Position numbers and translations under genes: made by a program. From the IMG/VR virus record IMGVR_UViG_3300024346_000041, positions 1 through 64,000 of that record: 64,000 bases of DNA; one strand, given 5' to 3'. The notes under the pieces are model-generated. The model did not search any database, was not told where the DNA came from, and saw only the letters and a program-made list of their open reading frames with translations. The DNA is from a virus. Below, piece after piece: positions 25,080 to 54,232 of the stretch (the first letter of the stretch is position 1; each line of letters opens with the position of its first letter).

Positions 25080-25331
25080 TTAGGAGCACTTAGCTCTTGA
25101 TCTACTAAACAGCTTTCTTGTGTTTTTACCACAAGAGGAAGCTTTACAGGCCGGTGTCGATTCCTTAACAGTGGCTGCTGGTTTAACAGCCTCTACCTTC
25201 CTGGCTTCTACAACTGGGCTACTAGCTACAGAACAAGAGCCACCTGAGCAAGAAGACTGTCTTTTTGCAAAGACTCCGTCTACTGACTCGGAACCTAGAG
25301 CGATACTTGCAGCCACTACGAATTGAAACAT
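25080..25331 (-). CDS. Small Cys-rich protein, possibly exported
   Basis: An 83-residue minus-strand protein with a perfect AGGAGG five bases before its ATG and a promoter further upstream. The N terminus has a short hydrophobic stretch (FQFVVAASIALG) that may be a weak signal sequence. There are two CxxxxC pairs (CSGGSC, CKASSC), a final Cys, and an Ala/Val/Lys-rich linker between them. Export and disulfides would fit but are inferred. It is one of five minus-strand genes in the window. Confidence 0.65.
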   Translation of the reverse strand: MFQFVVAASIALGSESVDGVFAKRQSSCSGGSCSVASSPVVEARKVEAVKPAATVKESTPACKASSCGKNTRKLFSRSRAKCS

Positions 25332-25509: not shown

Positions 25510-25755
25510 ATGAAAGACAAAAAAGAAATCGAGCAGTTAAGAGCTGAATACATTGAAGCAAAAATGGCAACAATGATAGACGATTGCGAAGGAGCCTCAG
25601 CTAATTCAGAAATGGCGTTTTATGCTGAAAAAGGATTAGAGATCGAATGCAATGGTCTTACCTTTGTAGAGCTAGAGGCACTTATGATTGAGCTCGCCGA
25701 GTTAAACGGTGAAGACGAGGACGATGAAGAAGACGAAGACGAAGAGTATGAATAA
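25510..25755 (+). CDS. Small acidic protein with Asp/Glu tail
   Basis: An 81-residue protein, AAAGGCA before the ATG. The last 15 residues are almost all Asp and Glu (EDEDDEEDEDEEYE) and the rest is acidic and helical. Such tails occur in DNA-mimic and partner-binding phage proteins, but charge alone does not prove this. It precedes the inverted-repeat cassette. Function unknown. Confidence 0.6.
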   Translation: MKDKKEIEQLRAEYIEAKMATMIDDCEGASANSEMAFYAEKGLEIECNGLTFVELEALMIELAELNGEDEDDEEDEDEEYE

Positions 25756-25790
25756 CTAAACTTAGTTTAAAAGTGTAACTGTATAAATAC

Positions 25791-25852
25791 TTTGTACAGT
25801 AGTTTGTACACGTTCCACTTAATTCACTATATTCTAAAGAATATAGTATTAT
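25791..25852 (+). repeat. Left 62-bp inverted repeat of the cassette
   Basis: This 62-base segment is the exact reverse complement of 26253-26314. It contains its own hairpin, ACTATATTCT (25826-25835) and AGAATATAGT (25838-25847) with a 2-base loop. It ends 20 bases before the ATG of the enclosed gene, so it forms most of that gene's leader. Matching stops sharply at both ends. Confidence 0.95.
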
Positions 25853-25872
25853 ACTTTTTAAAGGACTAAACC

Positions 25873-26256
25873 ATGGCTTGTGTAAGATGTGTAGTTTTAA
25901 AAAATCATAAGGATAGGAGTGAAGCTGTAAGGTCACAACATTCAAAAATACCTCACTTTGTAAAAATGTCGTGTTCAAAGTTTCAAGTAGCTTTAGGTAA
26001 GCACCATGAATACGCAATAGATAGGGCTAAAGCACAGTTAACTGAAAAAGGTCTTAATCCTGATGATTTTGACTTTTTAAGTTTTGATTACGTAGAAGGC
26101 TACTTTATGAGAGATATGTTTGAGAGCAGTAACTTTGTAAAAATATGGAGAAATGCTGAATTGTTTAATATTAAACCTTTGGGACCATTTTCACCTTGGT
26201 TTTCCGATGGAGAAGAAGCTGACCAGTTTCCAAATGAATTAGAGTTAAATACATAA
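25873..26256 (+). CDS. Unknown protein enclosed by perfect inverted repeats
   Basis: A 127-residue protein with AAAGGA before ATG 25873. It starts MACVRCVVLKNHKDRSEAV, has a CxxC, basic N-terminal half and aromatic, acidic C terminus. It does not look like a transposase, recombinase or homing nuclease. The stop codon overlaps the right inverted repeat by four bases, so the gene fills the cassette exactly. Its mRNA would have fully complementary 5' and 3' ends. Function unknown; the cassette arrangement suggests a mobile or switchable gene. Confidence 0.7.
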   Translation: MACVRCVVLKNHKDRSEAVRSQHSKIPHFVKMSCSKFQVALGKHHEYAIDRAKAQLTEKGLNPDDFDFLSFDYVEGYFMRDMFESSNFVKIWRNAELFNIKPLGPFSPWFSDGEEADQFPNELELNT

Positions 26257-26314
26257 TACTATATTCTTTAGAATATAGTGAATTAAGTGGAACGTGTACA
26301 AACTACTGTACAAA
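26253..26314 (-). repeat. Right 62-bp inverted repeat of the cassette
   Basis: The exact reverse complement of 25791-25852, including the inner hairpin at 26258-26279. No clear target-site duplication flanks the 524-bp unit; only the dinucleotide AC follows the right end and precedes the left end. Confidence 0.95.
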
Positions 26315-26339
26315 ACAAAACCTCATTAAGGATTTTAAC

Positions 26340-26924
26340 ATGATAAAAGACCTAAGACTGAACTTGGACATGGATCAACTCACCGAACTTTTAAACAGTA
26401 TTGGTGATAAGGTTAACTTAAACATAGTACTTAGCCCTAGTAACAAAGCTAGGTTTAAATTAGGTAAGGTGGTTAGTCCAAATGAATTTAGAGATGACTT
26501 TAGCGATAACTTTGAAGAGCTAAACTTGCTAGATGTACAACGCGACGGGTGTAGTTTGAGCCTTCCAGCTGTTAAAGAGCCTAAGCTTAACAAACCTAAA
26601 AAGCGTAGGTTTGGAAAACACACTCGTATTACTAGGAAGCATTTAGAACTAAGGGACTCAATGAATATTGCGCATTATAGTGGAAGGCTTTCAGCTCCTA
26701 GCATGAGAGCTATATTAATTAAAGACTGCGATTTGTTTGATAAAAAGACAAAGAACTTTCTTACTGGGCTAGGTTACATAACTCTTGCTGACGTCACAAA
26801 GTCTACTGAGGCTTTGATTCTAGGGGCCTGCAGTAGTCTCAAATTCAGCGATTACGTCACTAAGACGGGTCTTGGCAGGGTTATTGAATGTTTAGAGAAA
26901 ATAGGTGTGTTTTTGAGAAAGTAG
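26340..26924 (+). CDS. Protein with C-terminal helix-hairpin-helix (alpha-CTD-like)
   Basis: A 194-residue protein, AAGGA before the ATG. The centre has a very basic stretch (KPKKRRFGKHTRITRKH). The last 55 residues (LTGLGYITLADVTKS ... GLGRVIECLEKIGVFL) have the two-hairpin spacing of the bacterial RNA polymerase alpha C-terminal domain, though less clearly than the protein at 48746. A sigma-factor-like gene follows at 27677, so a transcription-related DNA-binding role is plausible. The N-terminal 90 residues are unrecognised. Confidence 0.5.
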   Translation: MIKDLRLNLDMDQLTELLNSIGDKVNLNIVLSPSNKARFKLGKVVSPNEFRDDFSDNFEELNLLDVQRDGCSLSLPAVKEPKLNKPKKRRFGKHTRITRKHLELRDSMNIAHYSGRLSAPSMRAILIKDCDLFDKKTKNFLTGLGYITLADVTKSTEALILGACSSLKFSDYVTKTGLGRVIECLEKIGVFLRK

Positions 26925-27676: not shown

Positions 27677-28399
27677 ATGGCGGTTAGGCGCTCATCTGGT
27701 CTACGCAAAAAAACTAGCAAACATAACGATTTTGACTACTTTTGGAACAGACACCAAGGAACCGTTGCTTTGTTAGCGGCTACTTTAGTTAAAGATTGCG
27801 GTGGTCATGCAGCAGACTATATGGGCTCTATAGCCCTAACATTTAATACTTTTCTTATAGCTTCAAGAAAAAAAATAAAAAGATATAGTGATCTTAGCTT
27901 TAAGCATTCAGCATTTGCTTTTTGTATTTATTATGTAAAAGCTCATTTTGTAAGATACGACTCTGACCTTATGGCTTCTGAGTGGGTAAACTTTAAAAAT
28001 GGGTTAGGAAGCCGTAGTTTAAACTTGTCTAGTTTTAAAGAAAGTAAAGGAAAAAAAGTTAAAGTAACTACGCCTTCTGACTCTGTTATTAAAAATATAC
28101 GATGCAGAGAGGCTGAACTTAATTGGGCTTTAGGGTTTATTGAAGAAGCTGGCGGAATAGTTCCTATGTGGGAGCTAGTATCATCTAGGTTAACTGCTAG
28201 ATACAAACTGATAGTTAAATACAGATACATTCTTGAGATGACTTTTCAAGATATAGGAGACATCGTAGGCATATGCAGAGAACGCGTTCGTCAAGTAATT
28301 ATGAAGGCTTTAATTATTATTCGTAATACTTTAAGAAGTATTAATAATAAAGAATACCTTCATTTATTTCGAAAAGACAACGTAGGTTTTGAGTACTAA
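27677..28399 (+). CDS. Sigma-70-family RNA polymerase sigma factor
   Basis: A 240-residue protein. Region 4 is clear near the C terminus (about 175-225): LTARYKLIVKYRYILEMTFQDIGDIVG, then CRERVRQVIMKALIIIRNTL, with the RERVRQ recognition-helix motif at about 201-206. The first 100 residues (FDYFWNRHQ ... AFAFCIYYVKAHF) fit a reduced region 2 that binds core polymerase and the -10 element. Compare T4 gp55, a short phage late sigma factor. It probably directs host polymerase to phage promoters such as the repeated element at 3579 and 63185; that link is inferred. Confidence 0.8.
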   Translation: MAVRRSSGLRKKTSKHNDFDYFWNRHQGTVALLAATLVKDCGGHAADYMGSIALTFNTFLIASRKKIKRYSDLSFKHSAFAFCIYYVKAHFVRYDSDLMASEWVNFKNGLGSRSLNLSSFKESKGKKVKVTTPSDSVIKNIRCREAELNWALGFIEEAGGIVPMWELVSSRLTARYKLIVKYRYILEMTFQDIGDIVGICRERVRQVIMKALIIIRNTLRSINNKEYLHLFRKDNVGFEY

Positions 28400-35372: not shown

Positions 35373-37487
35373 ATGAAACTTGAAAAGCTTCGCTTACGTA
35401 ATTTCTGTCAGCATCAAGAACTTGATTGGACTTTTCTTGATGGCATAACCGCCATCACAGGACCTAATGGCGGAGGAAAGTCTAACGCTATTAAGGGAGC
35501 ATACGCAGCCCTTACTGGAGACTTCAAGAGAAATGAAGGTGTTCTATCAGAGAACATTAATAAAATATGCTCAGATAAAGATGAGTCATTTGTAGAGCTA
35601 ACGTTTTCTACAACAGGCGGCAGGGCTGTTATAAAGAGAAACCTGAGACCTAACAAGCGGTCTTTAATTATAAACTCTATGCCTCCACTTACTGGGGACA
35701 GAGAGGTTACTACTGCTATTGAGGGCTTGGTTGGGGTAAGCTCTAACATATTGTCTGACTACATCTTTGTAGACCAATGGCAAATGTTCAGCATATTTAC
35801 TTTACCTAAGTCTGACAGGCTTTCAGCGCTGCAGTCACTATACGGTTTAGACAAAGCAGAGCTTTGTTACGATGAGATAAATAAATATTCATCTAAGATA
35901 TTAGTTCAGGTTCCATCTGAGACCGTAGAGTCCGTATTAGCGCAGATACGAGAGAAGACTTTACTACTTGAATCTATATCGCAATCTTTGAAGGAAGTGT
36001 CTTTAAACGTAGTAGACGACACTAAGCTTCAAAAAGACCTTAGCGAAGTAAGAAGAAAGAAAGATGTAAAACATGACATTAACAAGTGTTCAGAAAGTTT
36101 AAGTTTAGTTTTGTCTGATCTAAGTCAGGCAGAAGAAGCTAGGCCCCCTCTTTCAGCAAAGGTTGATGATCTGTCTTTAGTTAAGGACTCAGATGCGGCT
36201 TTAGCTGAGTATAAAAAGCATCAGTATCAGTGGGGTCTTATACATAAGTACGACAGCAGCAAAGCAGCTAATGAGGCTCAGCTTGCTATAGTTGAAGAAA
36301 GCATATCAGTACTAGTTGCGTCTGCTCCTATAAAGCCATCTCCCTACATAGAGTCTAGTGGTTTAGATTTTGAGAAGTACTCACAGTCTGCTGGGGCTTT
36401 AGAGGCCAAGAAGCAGAACTTACTTCAGCTTACTTCAAAGAAAGAATGCCCTGTATGCGGCACCACCGGAGAAGTACTGTTAGCTGCAATAGACGCTATA
36501 TCTAAACACCTAGTGGAGACGTCTCCACTAGTAGATCATATGAAGAAGCAATATCAGCTTAGTAGAGAGTACGACACTGCTAACTACAAGCACTCTTCAG
36601 ACTTAGCTGGGCTTAACAGTAAGCTTGAGCTGATTAAACTAAGGCTTCAGGCTGAAAGACCTGAGCAGCCTTCTGTCTCTGAAGACGAGGTTAATAAGTT
36701 TATTTCTACCTTTACTGAGCTTAGAACATCTTATGAGTCTTTGTCATCAAAGCTTTCTGCTTTAGACTTTTCAATAACTTCTTTAAAAGCAACCAGAGAC
36801 TCACTTTTGTCTCAGATTGAAACTAGAAGTAAAGAGTGCAACGTAAGTGAAGACTATTGCATGCAAGAAAGAGTATTGTGTGATAGCATCAATTTAGTAA
36901 ATCAAGACAGAGAAAAGAAAATACGATTTGAAGAGCAATCAAAAGCAACTGTTGAAACTTTAGATTACTTATACAATAGAAGAGATAAGCTGGTTGGAGA
37001 CATAGAAGAAGCTAGGGTTAATAAAGTTGCTAAGGATCATTTTGAAAATCTTAAAGAAGTTATGCATAAGTCTAACTTACCGAAGAGACTTACGGTAAAC
37101 TACTTAAAGAGGACAGTGATTAAGTTGAATGAGTATCTAGAAGACTTTAACGCTCCGTTCAGAGTTTACTCTGATGATGAGTTGGTCTTCTGGGCAAAGT
37201 TTAATGACGGAAGAGATTTACCAGCTGCTAGATTGTCAGGCGGTGAGAAGGTTGTTCTGGCTCTTGCATTCAGGCTAGCTGTTCAGTTTGGAGTAGCTTC
37301 AGGTGTAAACCTGTTAGTACTTGATGAACCAACCGTAGGTCTAGACGATGACAACATCGAATGTTTAGACACAGCTTTCAATAGACTAAGAGCTATGTCT
37401 AAGTCCTCTGGACTGCAAGTTATTGTAGTCAGTCACGAGAAAGCTATGGAGCGCATGTGCGATCATACGCTGACTCTTTATAAATAG
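35373..37487 (+). CDS. sbcC: Rad50/SbcC-type ATPase (T4 gp46-like)
   Basis: A 704-residue SMC-like ATPase. Walker A GPNGGGKSN is at 30-38, the zinc-hook CPVC at about 358-361 in the middle of a long coiled coil, the signature LSGGEK at about 615, and Walker B LLVLDEPTVGLDDDN at about 646-660. It is shorter than cellular SbcC because the coiled-coil arms are short, as in phage gp46. It works with SbcD at 33403. Palindrome copy 5 lies just after the zinc hook (LVETSPL). GGAG precedes the ATG. Confidence 0.9.
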   Translation: MKLEKLRLRNFCQHQELDWTFLDGITAITGPNGGGKSNAIKGAYAALTGDFKRNEGVLSENINKICSDKDESFVELTFSTTGGRAVIKRNLRPNKRSLIINSMPPLTGDREVTTAIEGLVGVSSNILSDYIFVDQWQMFSIFTLPKSDRLSALQSLYGLDKAELCYDEINKYSSKILVQVPSETVESVLAQIREKTLLLESISQSLKEVSLNVVDDTKLQKDLSEVRRKKDVKHDINKCSESLSLVLSDLSQAEEARPPLSAKVDDLSLVKDSDAALAEYKKHQYQWGLIHKYDSSKAANEAQLAIVEESISVLVASAPIKPSPYIESSGLDFEKYSQSAGALEAKKQNLLQLTSKKECPVCGTTGEVLLAAIDAISKHLVETSPLVDHMKKQYQLSREYDTANYKHSSDLAGLNSKLELIKLRLQAERPEQPSVSEDEVNKFISTFTELRTSYESLSSKLSALDFSITSLKATRDSLLSQIETRSKECNVSEDYCMQERVLCDSINLVNQDREKKIRFEEQSKATVETLDYLYNRRDKLVGDIEEARVNKVAKDHFENLKEVMHKSNLPKRLTVNYLKRTVIKLNEYLEDFNAPFRVYSDDELVFWAKFNDGRDLPAARLSGGEKVVLALAFRLAVQFGVASGVNLLVLDEPTVGLDDDNIECLDTAFNRLRAMSKSSGLQVIVVSHEKAMERMCDHTLTLYK
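36510..36531. repeat. Dispersed palindrome, copy 5 (22 bp perfect)
   Basis: Identical to copy 1 over 22 bp: left half CTAGTGGAGAC, right half GTCTCCACTAG, core 36515-36526. It is located in sbcC after the zinc-hook codons and read as LVETSPL. Confidence 0.9.
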
Positions 37488-37494
37488 GTGATAG

Positions 37495-38409
37495 ATGGGT
37501 ACAACAGTAGAAGGTTCGGTTTTCAAGCTTGCCTTAGACAGCAACAGTGAGGTGTGGGTTATAGAAGGCGACAGAATGCCTTACAGCACTAAGCTTACTG
37601 TTGAGGGTTACATAGACAAGCTTGAGACCTCTGGAAACTGCCCTGATAAGATTCGTGTTTTAGGTAGTGGTTCAAACGCCGGTATGATTGTAAGATTGTA
37701 CCGGCTTAAAGTTAAGCACAGGCTCAAGTCTCTTGAGATAGGCAGCCCAATCATAGTATCTAACAACGATGCGCCGGCTAATCTTATTAAGATGAGAATG
37801 GCTTCAGCTATTCCGTCTTTAGGTGGTTGGCATGAGGCTGATATGTTAGATTGCGCTTCATACGGGGTTGGGGCTCTTATAAGATCAGAGACAGAAGGCT
37901 CTCACATAAAAGCTTGTGAGCTAATGAAGCAGCATCCTGTATGGAACTATGTAAGCTTCATACCTCATATAGATGACATGTTCTTCACAAAGGTTATGGC
38001 TAGAATAGGTGACCCAAGGTGGTATATAGACCCTAACCATCCATCTAGGCTTTCAAGGTTGTATTCTTGGCTTGGCTTGTGCAATGGACCACAGACTGAC
38101 GATAAGCTTGTAAAGAAGTTTGACGTTTACTCCTGTTGGTCTAAAGGTCTGTCAGCTTCTATATCCGAGATGGCTAGGCCTGGTTGGTTTATTATAAGAG
38201 AAGGCAGTACTAAATGGGCAAACCACAAGCCTTGGGTTAGTTCGTTAAGAATGTCTCAGCTCTTTATCAAGTTTGTACGTATGGCTTGGATGGACAGCAT
38301 ATACCCATATCCAAACCCTTGGATGGAAAAAGTGTTTGATCCAGATCTTTTCTTTTCACAAGAGAAGGATTCAATAGGTCTGGCTATTCACCTGAGCAAG
38401 TTGAAGTAG
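37495..38409 (+). CDS. Unknown protein in the recombination cluster
   Basis: A 304-residue protein starting seven bases after sbcC with AGGTGA upstream. It has many aromatic residues and Trp (SLGGWHEADML, WSKGLSASISEMARPGWFIIREGSTKWANHKPW), conserved-looking Cys positions, and no P-loop or nuclease motif I can identify. It is co-transcribed with sbcC, so a recombination or replication accessory function is likely. The following 222-base gap holds a promoter and operator. Confidence 0.65.
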   Translation: MGTTVEGSVFKLALDSNSEVWVIEGDRMPYSTKLTVEGYIDKLETSGNCPDKIRVLGSGSNAGMIVRLYRLKVKHRLKSLEIGSPIIVSNNDAPANLIKMRMASAIPSLGGWHEADMLDCASYGVGALIRSETEGSHIKACELMKQHPVWNYVSFIPHIDDMFFTKVMARIGDPRWYIDPNHPSRLSRLYSWLGLCNGPQTDDKLVKKFDVYSCWSKGLSASISEMARPGWFIIREGSTKWANHKPWVSSLRMSQLFIKFVRMAWMDSIYPYPNPWMEKVFDPDLFFSQEKDSIGLAIHLSKLK

Positions 38410-53020: not shown

Positions 53021-54232
53021 ATGGCTAAGAGAAAGTGGGACCCAGACGTAAAGATAACAGCATCTGACTTTTTTTCTTCACAGATGACATCTTCACAGGC
53101 TGAGCTTGGACGTAACGACACTTATATTGGATCAGAGTCTCAAAGGGTTATCATAGGCATTCCATTGCCTGCGTTTAGCCTAAGATACTTGTTCCAAAAC
53201 GACTGTTTTCCATTAAGCAGGATGACAGAACTGTATGGTATCAACGAGTCTTGTAAGTCAGCAATGTTGTATGAGATGTTTAGATGGCATGTTAATGCAG
53301 GTGGTGGGTACATCTTCAACCTAGCCGAACCTAAAGATAGCCCTGATCTTAGGTCTAGTATAATTGGCCATGAGGCTGATAGAAAGTGGCCAACTCAGAC
53401 TTGTAACAGCATAGAGGATTGGCAGGAGAACATAACAAAATGGCTTAAAGAAAGTAGAAAAGCTTTTTCTGAGTCAGGGTCTTGCCCTTTTCCTGGAGCC
53501 ATTGGAGTCGACTCTTTAACAGCTGTTGCAACTAGAGCAGAGATTGCTGCGATATGGGAAAAGGGTTTTGCACAGATAAACTTTGCAAAAGGTGCAAACA
53601 TTATTAACACCTATTGTAAGTTTGTGTTTTCAGAGATTAGAGTGTGGCCTTTTAGCTTCATTGGAGTTAACCATATGAAGGTAGGTAAGGACGCAAACGG
53701 TATTCCAGAGTATAAGATACCTGGAGGCCAATCGTTAGATTTTTATGCTACTTTTAAAATAAGAATGCAAAGGAAGGACGACATAGACAGGCTTGATGAG
53801 TCTGGTCGTTTAATTAAGTTTATTATGGATAAGAACAGCCTTGGAACGGCTCCAGAGCGAAGGTCCATACTAGCTCCTATGAAGTGGACATTTGACGAGA
53901 ATGGAGTTCAAACCACTTGGTGGGATTGGCATGAGGCAAGCATACGCATCATAGAAGGAATGACTTCAGTACGTAAGAAGGTTATTACTGACATCACAGG
54001 ACTTAAAAACATTGATAAGTCACGCAGGACTGCTGACTGCTCAAAGTTGGGCTTGGTAGGAGCTAGCTGGACTGAAGTAGGAGCAGCTATTGACGCAGAC
54101 GTAGCTATGAGAGAAGAACTTGACGCTTCTCAAGGTATACGAAAGCGTAGACCTTTTGTTTTAGGCGTTCCCTACTCAACTCAGATGAGGGAAGCATGTG
54201 AAGCTGGAGAAGTTGAGAAAGTGGGTGTGTAA
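53021..54232 (+). CDS. RecA/UvsX-like recombinase with altered Walker A
   Basis: A 403-residue protein with AAGGAG before the ATG. The RecA core is seen in GINESCKSA (73-81) at the Walker A position, IGVDSL (about 161-166) at Walker B and a later PGGQSLDFYATFKIRMQRKDD, which matches the L2/DNA-binding strand region of UvsX/RecA. Compared with the consensus GxxxxGKT, the Gly before Lys is Cys (SCKS), unusual but compatible with nucleotide binding. It should form filaments on single-stranded DNA for recombination-driven replication. The C terminus is divergent. The call rests on motif order. Confidence 0.75.
   Translation: MAKRKWDPDVKITASDFFSSQMTSSQAELGRNDTYIGSESQRVIIGIPLPAFSLRYLFQNDCFPLSRMTELYGINESCKSAMLYEMFRWHVNAGGGYIFNLAEPKDSPDLRSSIIGHEADRKWPTQTCNSIEDWQENITKWLKESRKAFSESGSCPFPGAIGVDSLTAVATRAEIAAIWEKGFAQINFAKGANIINTYCKFVFSEIRVWPFSFIGVNHMKVGKDANGIPEYKIPGGQSLDFYATFKIRMQRKDDIDRLDESGRLIKFIMDKNSLGTAPERRSILAPMKWTFDENGVQTTWWDWHEASIRIIEGMTSVRKKVITDITGLKNIDKSRRTADCSKLGLVGASWTEVGAAIDADVAMREELDASQGIRKRRPFVLGVPYSTQMREACEAGEVEKVGV

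Follow-up and report, generated by a model that had tools for sequence, protein, structure and literature searches.

A single gene enclosed by exact inverted repeats

The window, a 64,000-nucleotide stretch of DNA taken from a virus record of 75,404 bases (IMG/VR record IMGVR_UViG_3300024346_000041), contains a 524-bp cassette in which one gene is bracketed by two inverted-repeat arms (Table 1). The arms are 100% complementary over 62 nt, with 400 nt between them, and the right arm includes the TAA stop codon of the 127-residue gene in its first 4 nt, confirming two features of the original prediction, which had been made from the sequence alone. The same prediction had placed a 10-bp hairpin in each repeat; the palindrome ACTATATTCT-AA-AGAATATAGT does have 10-bp half-sites as DNA, but the fold itself consists of 9 bp and a 4-nt loop. 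No further copy of the arm sequence was found in the 75,404-base record. Exact inverted repeats with spacers of 60-2000 bp otherwise reach no more than 14-18 bp in four related genomes (546 kb), which excludes a chance origin of the arms and makes the 62-bp repeat the sole one of its kind in these sequences. Since a like arrangement is present in four other contigs, an assembly artefact is unlikely to be the source of the repeat.

Table 1. Positions of the cassette features and neighboring genes in the window.
Feature	Position	Strand	Remarks
Upstream neighbor, 81-aa acidic protein	25510..25755	+	present in close relative; none at equivalent place in distant clade
TATAAA, -10-like hexamer	25782..25787	+	weak promoter candidate; 3 nt outside left arm
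Left arm of inverted repeat	25791..25852	+	62 bp; stops 20 nt 5´ of ATG, ribosome-binding site outside
TGTACA-N6-TGTACA, outer side of left arm	25793..25810	+	missing from left arm in distant clade
CTTAATTCA, left arm	25818..25826	+	same as upstream element of the clade's promoters; TATAGT at 25842-25847, after 15 nt
Palindrome/hairpin ACTATATTCT-AA-AGAATATAGT, left arm	25826..25847	+	
Ribosome-binding site AAAGGA of enclosed gene	25860..25865	+	just inward of left arm, before ATG
Enclosed gene, 127 aa, ATG...TAA	25873..26256	+	only gene between arms; N-terminal half basic
Right arm of inverted repeat	26253..26314	-	exact reverse complement of left arm; holds TAA stop; ends ~25 nt before downstream ATG
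Palindrome/hairpin ACTATATTCT-AA-AGAATATAGT, right arm	26258..26279	-	
CTTAATTCA, right arm	26279..26287	-	inward-facing, antisense to gene; TATAGT at 26258-26263
TGTACA-N6-TGTACA, outer side of right arm	26295..26312	-	both clades; single TGTACA in close relative
Downstream neighbor, 194 aa	26340..26924	+	homologue lies upstream of cassette in distant clade

The enclosed gene is real and is under purifying selection, with dN of 0.10, dS of 0.43 and dN/dS of 0.24 in the comparison with a close relative. Its product has no relative in Pfam, PHROGs or PDB sequences, in phage or plasmid records, or in genome contigs, and the arm sequence likewise was not found in the genome contigs searched. The protein has no recognizable DNA-binding domain. 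Two AlphaFold models reached pLDDT values of 41-46 and Foldseek returned no significant matches, for which reason the predicted structure was left uninterpreted. A known RNA family was also considered for the cassette and dropped, as Rfam yielded sub-threshold chance matches only.

A third half-site, AAGTGGAAC, lies to the left of the left arm (~25772-25780); the close relative carries an exact form, the window a mismatched one, and in the distant clade described below it takes the form TTAAGTGC. This half-site might be an alternative partner for the left arm, an idea that, given its mismatch in the window, was not built upon.

The gene and its repeats in two phage clades

We compared four phages in two clades, with three distinct arm sequences among them. 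The close relative, represented by two identical contigs, is ~90% identical to the window along its whole length; it has the gene (81% protein identity) at the corresponding place, with the orientation unchanged. Its repeat is exact over 55 bp and shifted, with 12 nt missing from the outer right arm and a longer inner end. Two distant phages, reached through relatives of the phage's RecA/UvsX-like gene, encode the protein at ~41% identity and have exact repeats, 35 and 38 bp long, directly flanking the gene; their arms are related but different in sequence and occupy the same positions beside it. No other carrier turned up in a further scan with a profile built from the four sequences. The arm core occurs in every one of the four genomes as one forward and one reverse copy, always at the enclosed gene. 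The placement of the arms is similarly constrained in all the phages found: between the left arm and the ATG there are 12-25 nt, which in every case leaves the ribosome-binding site outside the arm, and the start of the right arm lies between 3 nt ahead of and 11 nt beyond the stop-codon end. The orientation of the gene relative to its neighbors is identical in all five contigs, which represent four distinct phages.

A long and perfect inverted repeat is commonly taken to mark a recent insertion or inversion. Here, instead, the repeats bracket one gene across phages at 41% protein identity and change in concert. The recent origin that the original prediction had drawn from their perfect identity is thus refuted by the homologous repeats in the distant phages, and our leading reading of the cassette is a long-established, vertically inherited gene with matched inverted arms on both flanks. 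Kinship with Vibrio phage D69 or Salmonella phage Arash was also considered and rejected as too distant (30% identity in the terminase); D69 has no long inverted repeat within its first 50 kb.

Comparison with the close relative brought out three other loci. A lone minus-strand ORF at 25080-25331, encoding an 83-aa cysteine-containing protein whose N-terminus is kept in both clades, sits in a 299-bp stretch that is identical between these phages of ~90% overall identity. The gene at 27677-28399 encodes a sigma-70 region 4 protein, and its positional counterpart in the close relative encodes a protein of only 39% identity, so this gene has either been replaced or evolves very fast. Finally, the two phages match without a single difference along 909 bp at 37227-38135, a stretch overlapping an ORF (37495-38409) that has a weak PHROG match to 'transposase' (E 1.9e-4) and no Pfam match, and that is possibly a recent mobile gene.

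Concerted change of the two arms

The inverted repeat around this one orphan gene is conserved and evolves concertedly in two phage clades. Within the 35-bp core common to all four phages, 10 of 35 positions vary, and all 10 changes are mirrored in the opposite arm. No one-sided change, mismatch or G-U pair was seen in any of the four phages; the core was picked as the exact repeat of the shortest case, such that its 100% Watson-Crick pairing arises partly by construction, which does not apply to the mirrored changes. None of 500 shuffles reproduced the mirrored changes, and register-shifted comparisons gave 0-1 pairs. Between the window and the close relative, AGTATTAT is exchanged for AGTAGTAT in both arms, and within the distant pair CTTAATTCA is exchanged for CTTAAGTCA in both arms; by sequence comparison, these mirrored changes are recent. 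That all 10 core differences are mirrored and none is one-sided supports concerted evolution of the arms, putatively by gene conversion or template switching, and fits the ongoing gene conversion that the original prediction had suggested.

Other parts of the arms have changed between the clades. The local hairpin persists with altered sequence, stem and loop (9 bp + UAAA vs 8 bp + UAA), and the spacing of the palindrome half-sites shifts by 3 bp, the distant clade having the arrangement 9+1+9. The left arms of the close pair differ at a single site out of 62, the adjacent non-coding DNA at 9 of 55. As 16% of the aligned 62-bp windows in this pair are equally similar, arm conservation alone is weak evidence.

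Template switching is known to homogenize the arms of inverted repeats, a process that was first proposed for phages and that prefers short spacers (PMC8604942). The arms of the cassette, like those of quasipalindromes, seem to have been made identical by copying (PMC8604942), but their spacer of 400-470 bp is long compared with the short spacers that are usual and favored, a point against template switching here. With this homogenization being a known mutational bias (PMC8604942), and with the arm similarity in the close pair not being unusual, the perfect arms could simply have arisen because template switching acted on an inverted repeat that was there by chance and has no function itself. 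We regard this as improbable, given that the repeat, its placement at start and stop, the internal hairpin and a CACTTAA-TCA core all persist at 41% protein identity where nearby non-coding DNA has diverged, and given the low divergence of the arms relative to the adjoining non-coding DNA in the close pair.

Possible mobility or inversion of the cassette

The original prediction had offered three mechanisms, the first being a non-autonomous mobile gene. Such a cassette would depend on an enzyme of the host or phage, supplied in trans, to mobilize it by its 62-bp terminal inverted repeats, in the manner of MPME1 (439 bp) and MPME2 of mycobacteriophages, which it resembles in size and layout: ~0.5 kb, one small ORF and inverted repeats (PMC3029335). 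The MPME elements have several insertion sites, empty sites and a 6-bp addition (PMC3029335). Movement would also suit the fact that the cassette precedes the 194-aa gene in the window's clade and follows its homologue in the distant clade; however, the neighbors on both sides also differ between the clades, so that the change in order is not a clean hop. The differing gene order does indicate that a rearrangement took place around the cassette in the past. Unlike MPME, the cassette is a single fixed copy in each genome, at the same site in the ~90% relative, and its protein has no detectable similarity in the phage records, or in the plasmid records and genome contigs. The outer repeat ends, which a transposase presumably would require, vary in all relatives, whereas the inner core is conserved. 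The original prediction had pointed to related phages as the place to look for an empty site or the same repeat; the repeat was present in the ~90% relative and in the distant clade, but no empty site was found, nor a second insertion site among the close relatives. In line with the same prediction, no target-site duplication was visible beside the arms at any of the four loci. With outer bases unconserved, no second copy and no target duplication, we rejected the arms as transposon ends, and a mobile gene is disfavored to the point of being unlikely.

The second mechanism was an invertible switch, in which recombination at the arms flips the gene and keeps the arms identical. Perfect inverted repeats around a segment are also seen in invertons and phage G-segment switches, recombination from arm to arm would account for the concerted evolution, the 10+2+10 palindrome is like a serine-invertase site, and a RecA/UvsX-like recombinase is encoded at 53021-54229. 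Unlike in invertons and G-segment switches, no recombinase was found to go with the cassette and a single orientation was seen, the gene being oriented as its neighbors are in all five contigs. Resolvase and tyrosine recombinase were not found in the record of the window or in its 82- and 190-kb relatives (PF00239, PF00589 and PF01797 were absent from these 75-, 82- and 190-kb records, which may be incomplete), although a host-encoded enzyme could conceivably act instead. The lack of a transposase or invertase noted in the original prediction thus holds for serine and tyrosine recombinases and Y1 transposases, in the 190-kb relative too. The distant-clade palindrome, at 9+1+9, is without the 2-bp centre. 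With neither the centre nor the half-site spacing kept and no recombinase family found, the serine-invertase site was discarded, and inversion appears hardly probable.

Promoter-like elements in the arms

An alternative use of the arms as DNA is suggested by the 9-mer CTTAATTCA. The promoters of the clade, CTTAATTCA/CTTAATCCA-N14-CATAAT, are clear, and exact CTTAATTCA faces inward in both arms of three of the four phages, with TATAGT or AATAGT 15 nt on. Beyond promoters and arms, it occurs only three times in 546 kb. Each arm might thus combine an inward-directed phage promoter with an overlapping palindromic operator, such that the gene is transcribed from the left arm and an antisense RNA from the right; a single regulator, perhaps the gene product with its basic N-terminal half, would control both, and the arms would be homogenized by template switching or gene conversion. 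In the distant clade, where a covarying hairpin and T-run precede the cassette, the gene should have a promoter of its own. Against these points, both arms of the fourth phage carry CTTAAGTCA, off the promoter consensus; the spacing in the arm element is 15 nt vs the expected 14, and the expected GCGTCATAAT is absent. The half-site spacing of the palindrome is unequal in the two clades, and the protein, whose AlphaFold model was unusable, offers no recognizable DNA-binding domain. Paired promoters are a possible explanation of the arms, somewhat less probable than the pairing of mRNA ends discussed below.

The hairpin of the distant clade lies ~55 nt upstream of the left arm and is followed by the T-run (GGGC..GCCC-TTTT vs GGTCA..TGACC-GTTTT). 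A larger terminator-like hairpin is found farther upstream of the cassette in that clade.

Proposed pairing of the mRNA ends

We tentatively put first the third mechanism of the original prediction, in which the 5´ and 3´ flanking hairpins of one mRNA would pair into a long duplex. In an mRNA containing both arms, the 5´ and 3´ arms would first fold as local hairpins with the complementary loops UAAA and UUUA, and the hairpins would then pair to give a 35-62-bp duplex enclosing the coding sequence. This duplex may govern how stable this one message of the operon is, how RNase III processes it or how well it is translated. In DNA, template switching or gene conversion, possibly helped by the hairpins, would copy changes from arm to arm and so maintain the match. 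Several observations favor pairing of the message ends. In RNA folding of 25756-26340, the arm duplex is dominant (-171.5 kcal/mol, z -10). In addition, -10-like hexamers are found just outside the left arm, with TTTAAA, TATAAA and CATAAA in like position among the relatives; the distance to the arm is 3-4 nt in three phages (the window and the distant pair), and in the close relative the hexamer occupies the homologous position. Such a hexamer, which is only suggestive, would start the message at the arm. The persistence of the hairpin despite a shorter stem and loop and a new sequence, as is the way of RNA hairpins, supports an RNA reading, and the 3-bp change in half-site spacing, awkward for a rigid protein dimer on DNA, counts against the latter.

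Other observations speak against pairing or limit what it could do. If transcription started at the inner edge of the left arm, as paired promoters would have it, the mRNA of the gene would be left without the 5´ arm. The complete lack of G-U pairs and mismatches is unlike the outcome of selection on RNA pairing alone; since RNA pairing tolerates both, the flawless match calls for arm-to-arm copying at the DNA level, and such copying could by itself explain the perfection of the arms without an RNA function. Masking of the ribosome-binding site is not indicated, as this site lies between arm and ATG, outside the duplex, and its predicted accessibility with vs without the 3´ arm is little changed in three of the four genomes. 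Still, pairing of the mRNA ends is the best of the three mechanisms originally offered; nothing contradicts it, and it is unproven. Taken together, the comparisons point to a conserved control structure rather than a jumping or flipping gene.

Known RNAs offer partial parallels. In hok/aapA mRNAs, 5´-3´ long-distance interactions involve a short pairing in which a 3´ element masks the Shine-Dalgarno sequence (PMC6733600). The cassette is similar in that one small ORF is bracketed by complementary ends with local metastable hairpins and end covariation (PMC6733600), the complementarity covarying across the ORF flanks with 10 double-sided and no one-sided changes. It is different in that the pairing is perfect, spans 35-62 bp and stops just before the Shine-Dalgarno sequence. 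Unlike type I toxins, the enclosed protein, 127-147 aa across the carriers, is not hydrophobic, and no antisense antitoxin is known. A second parallel is the RNase III stalk of bacterial pre-rRNA, a leader-trailer helix in which flanking inverted repeats form one long duplex in a longer transcript (PMC10250234); the cassette differs in enclosing a coding gene and not rRNA, and in that its processing is only putative. By this analogy, a stalk-enclosed message for one orphan protein may, with less confidence than end pairing as such, be seen as the coding-gene counterpart of the pre-rRNA stalk. It is likewise conceivable, if somewhat speculative, that the flanks of a phage mRNA are actively kept perfect complements by DNA copying, with the resulting double-stranded stalk switching the message on or off or controlling its processing. 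At ~0.5 kb, the system is small enough to test mRNA-end pairing, paired promoters and arm-to-arm copying.

Small-gene operons and a dispersed palindrome

Two further features of these genomes were noted. At 74331-74890 of the record and at 81-84 kb of the reversed 190-kb relative lie small-gene operons, each with the terminator TTTTTTAGCTATCA, in a region that varies between phages. These operons have a strongly conserved promoter, CTTAATYCA-N14-CATAAT, some starting inside a perfect 14-bp palindrome, TGGAGACGTCTCCA. This palindrome, mostly extended to AGTGGAGACGTCTCCACT, recurs every ~5-15 kb, with window positions 1979, 12940, 21588, 27344, 36514, 44317 and 57734. The 75-kb record has 10 copies, the 190-kb relative 23 and the two distant relatives 9 and 13, compared with none in the initial 50 kb of Vibrio phage D69. 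The positions of the palindrome agree between close relatives, and it looks like a dispersed protein-binding site.
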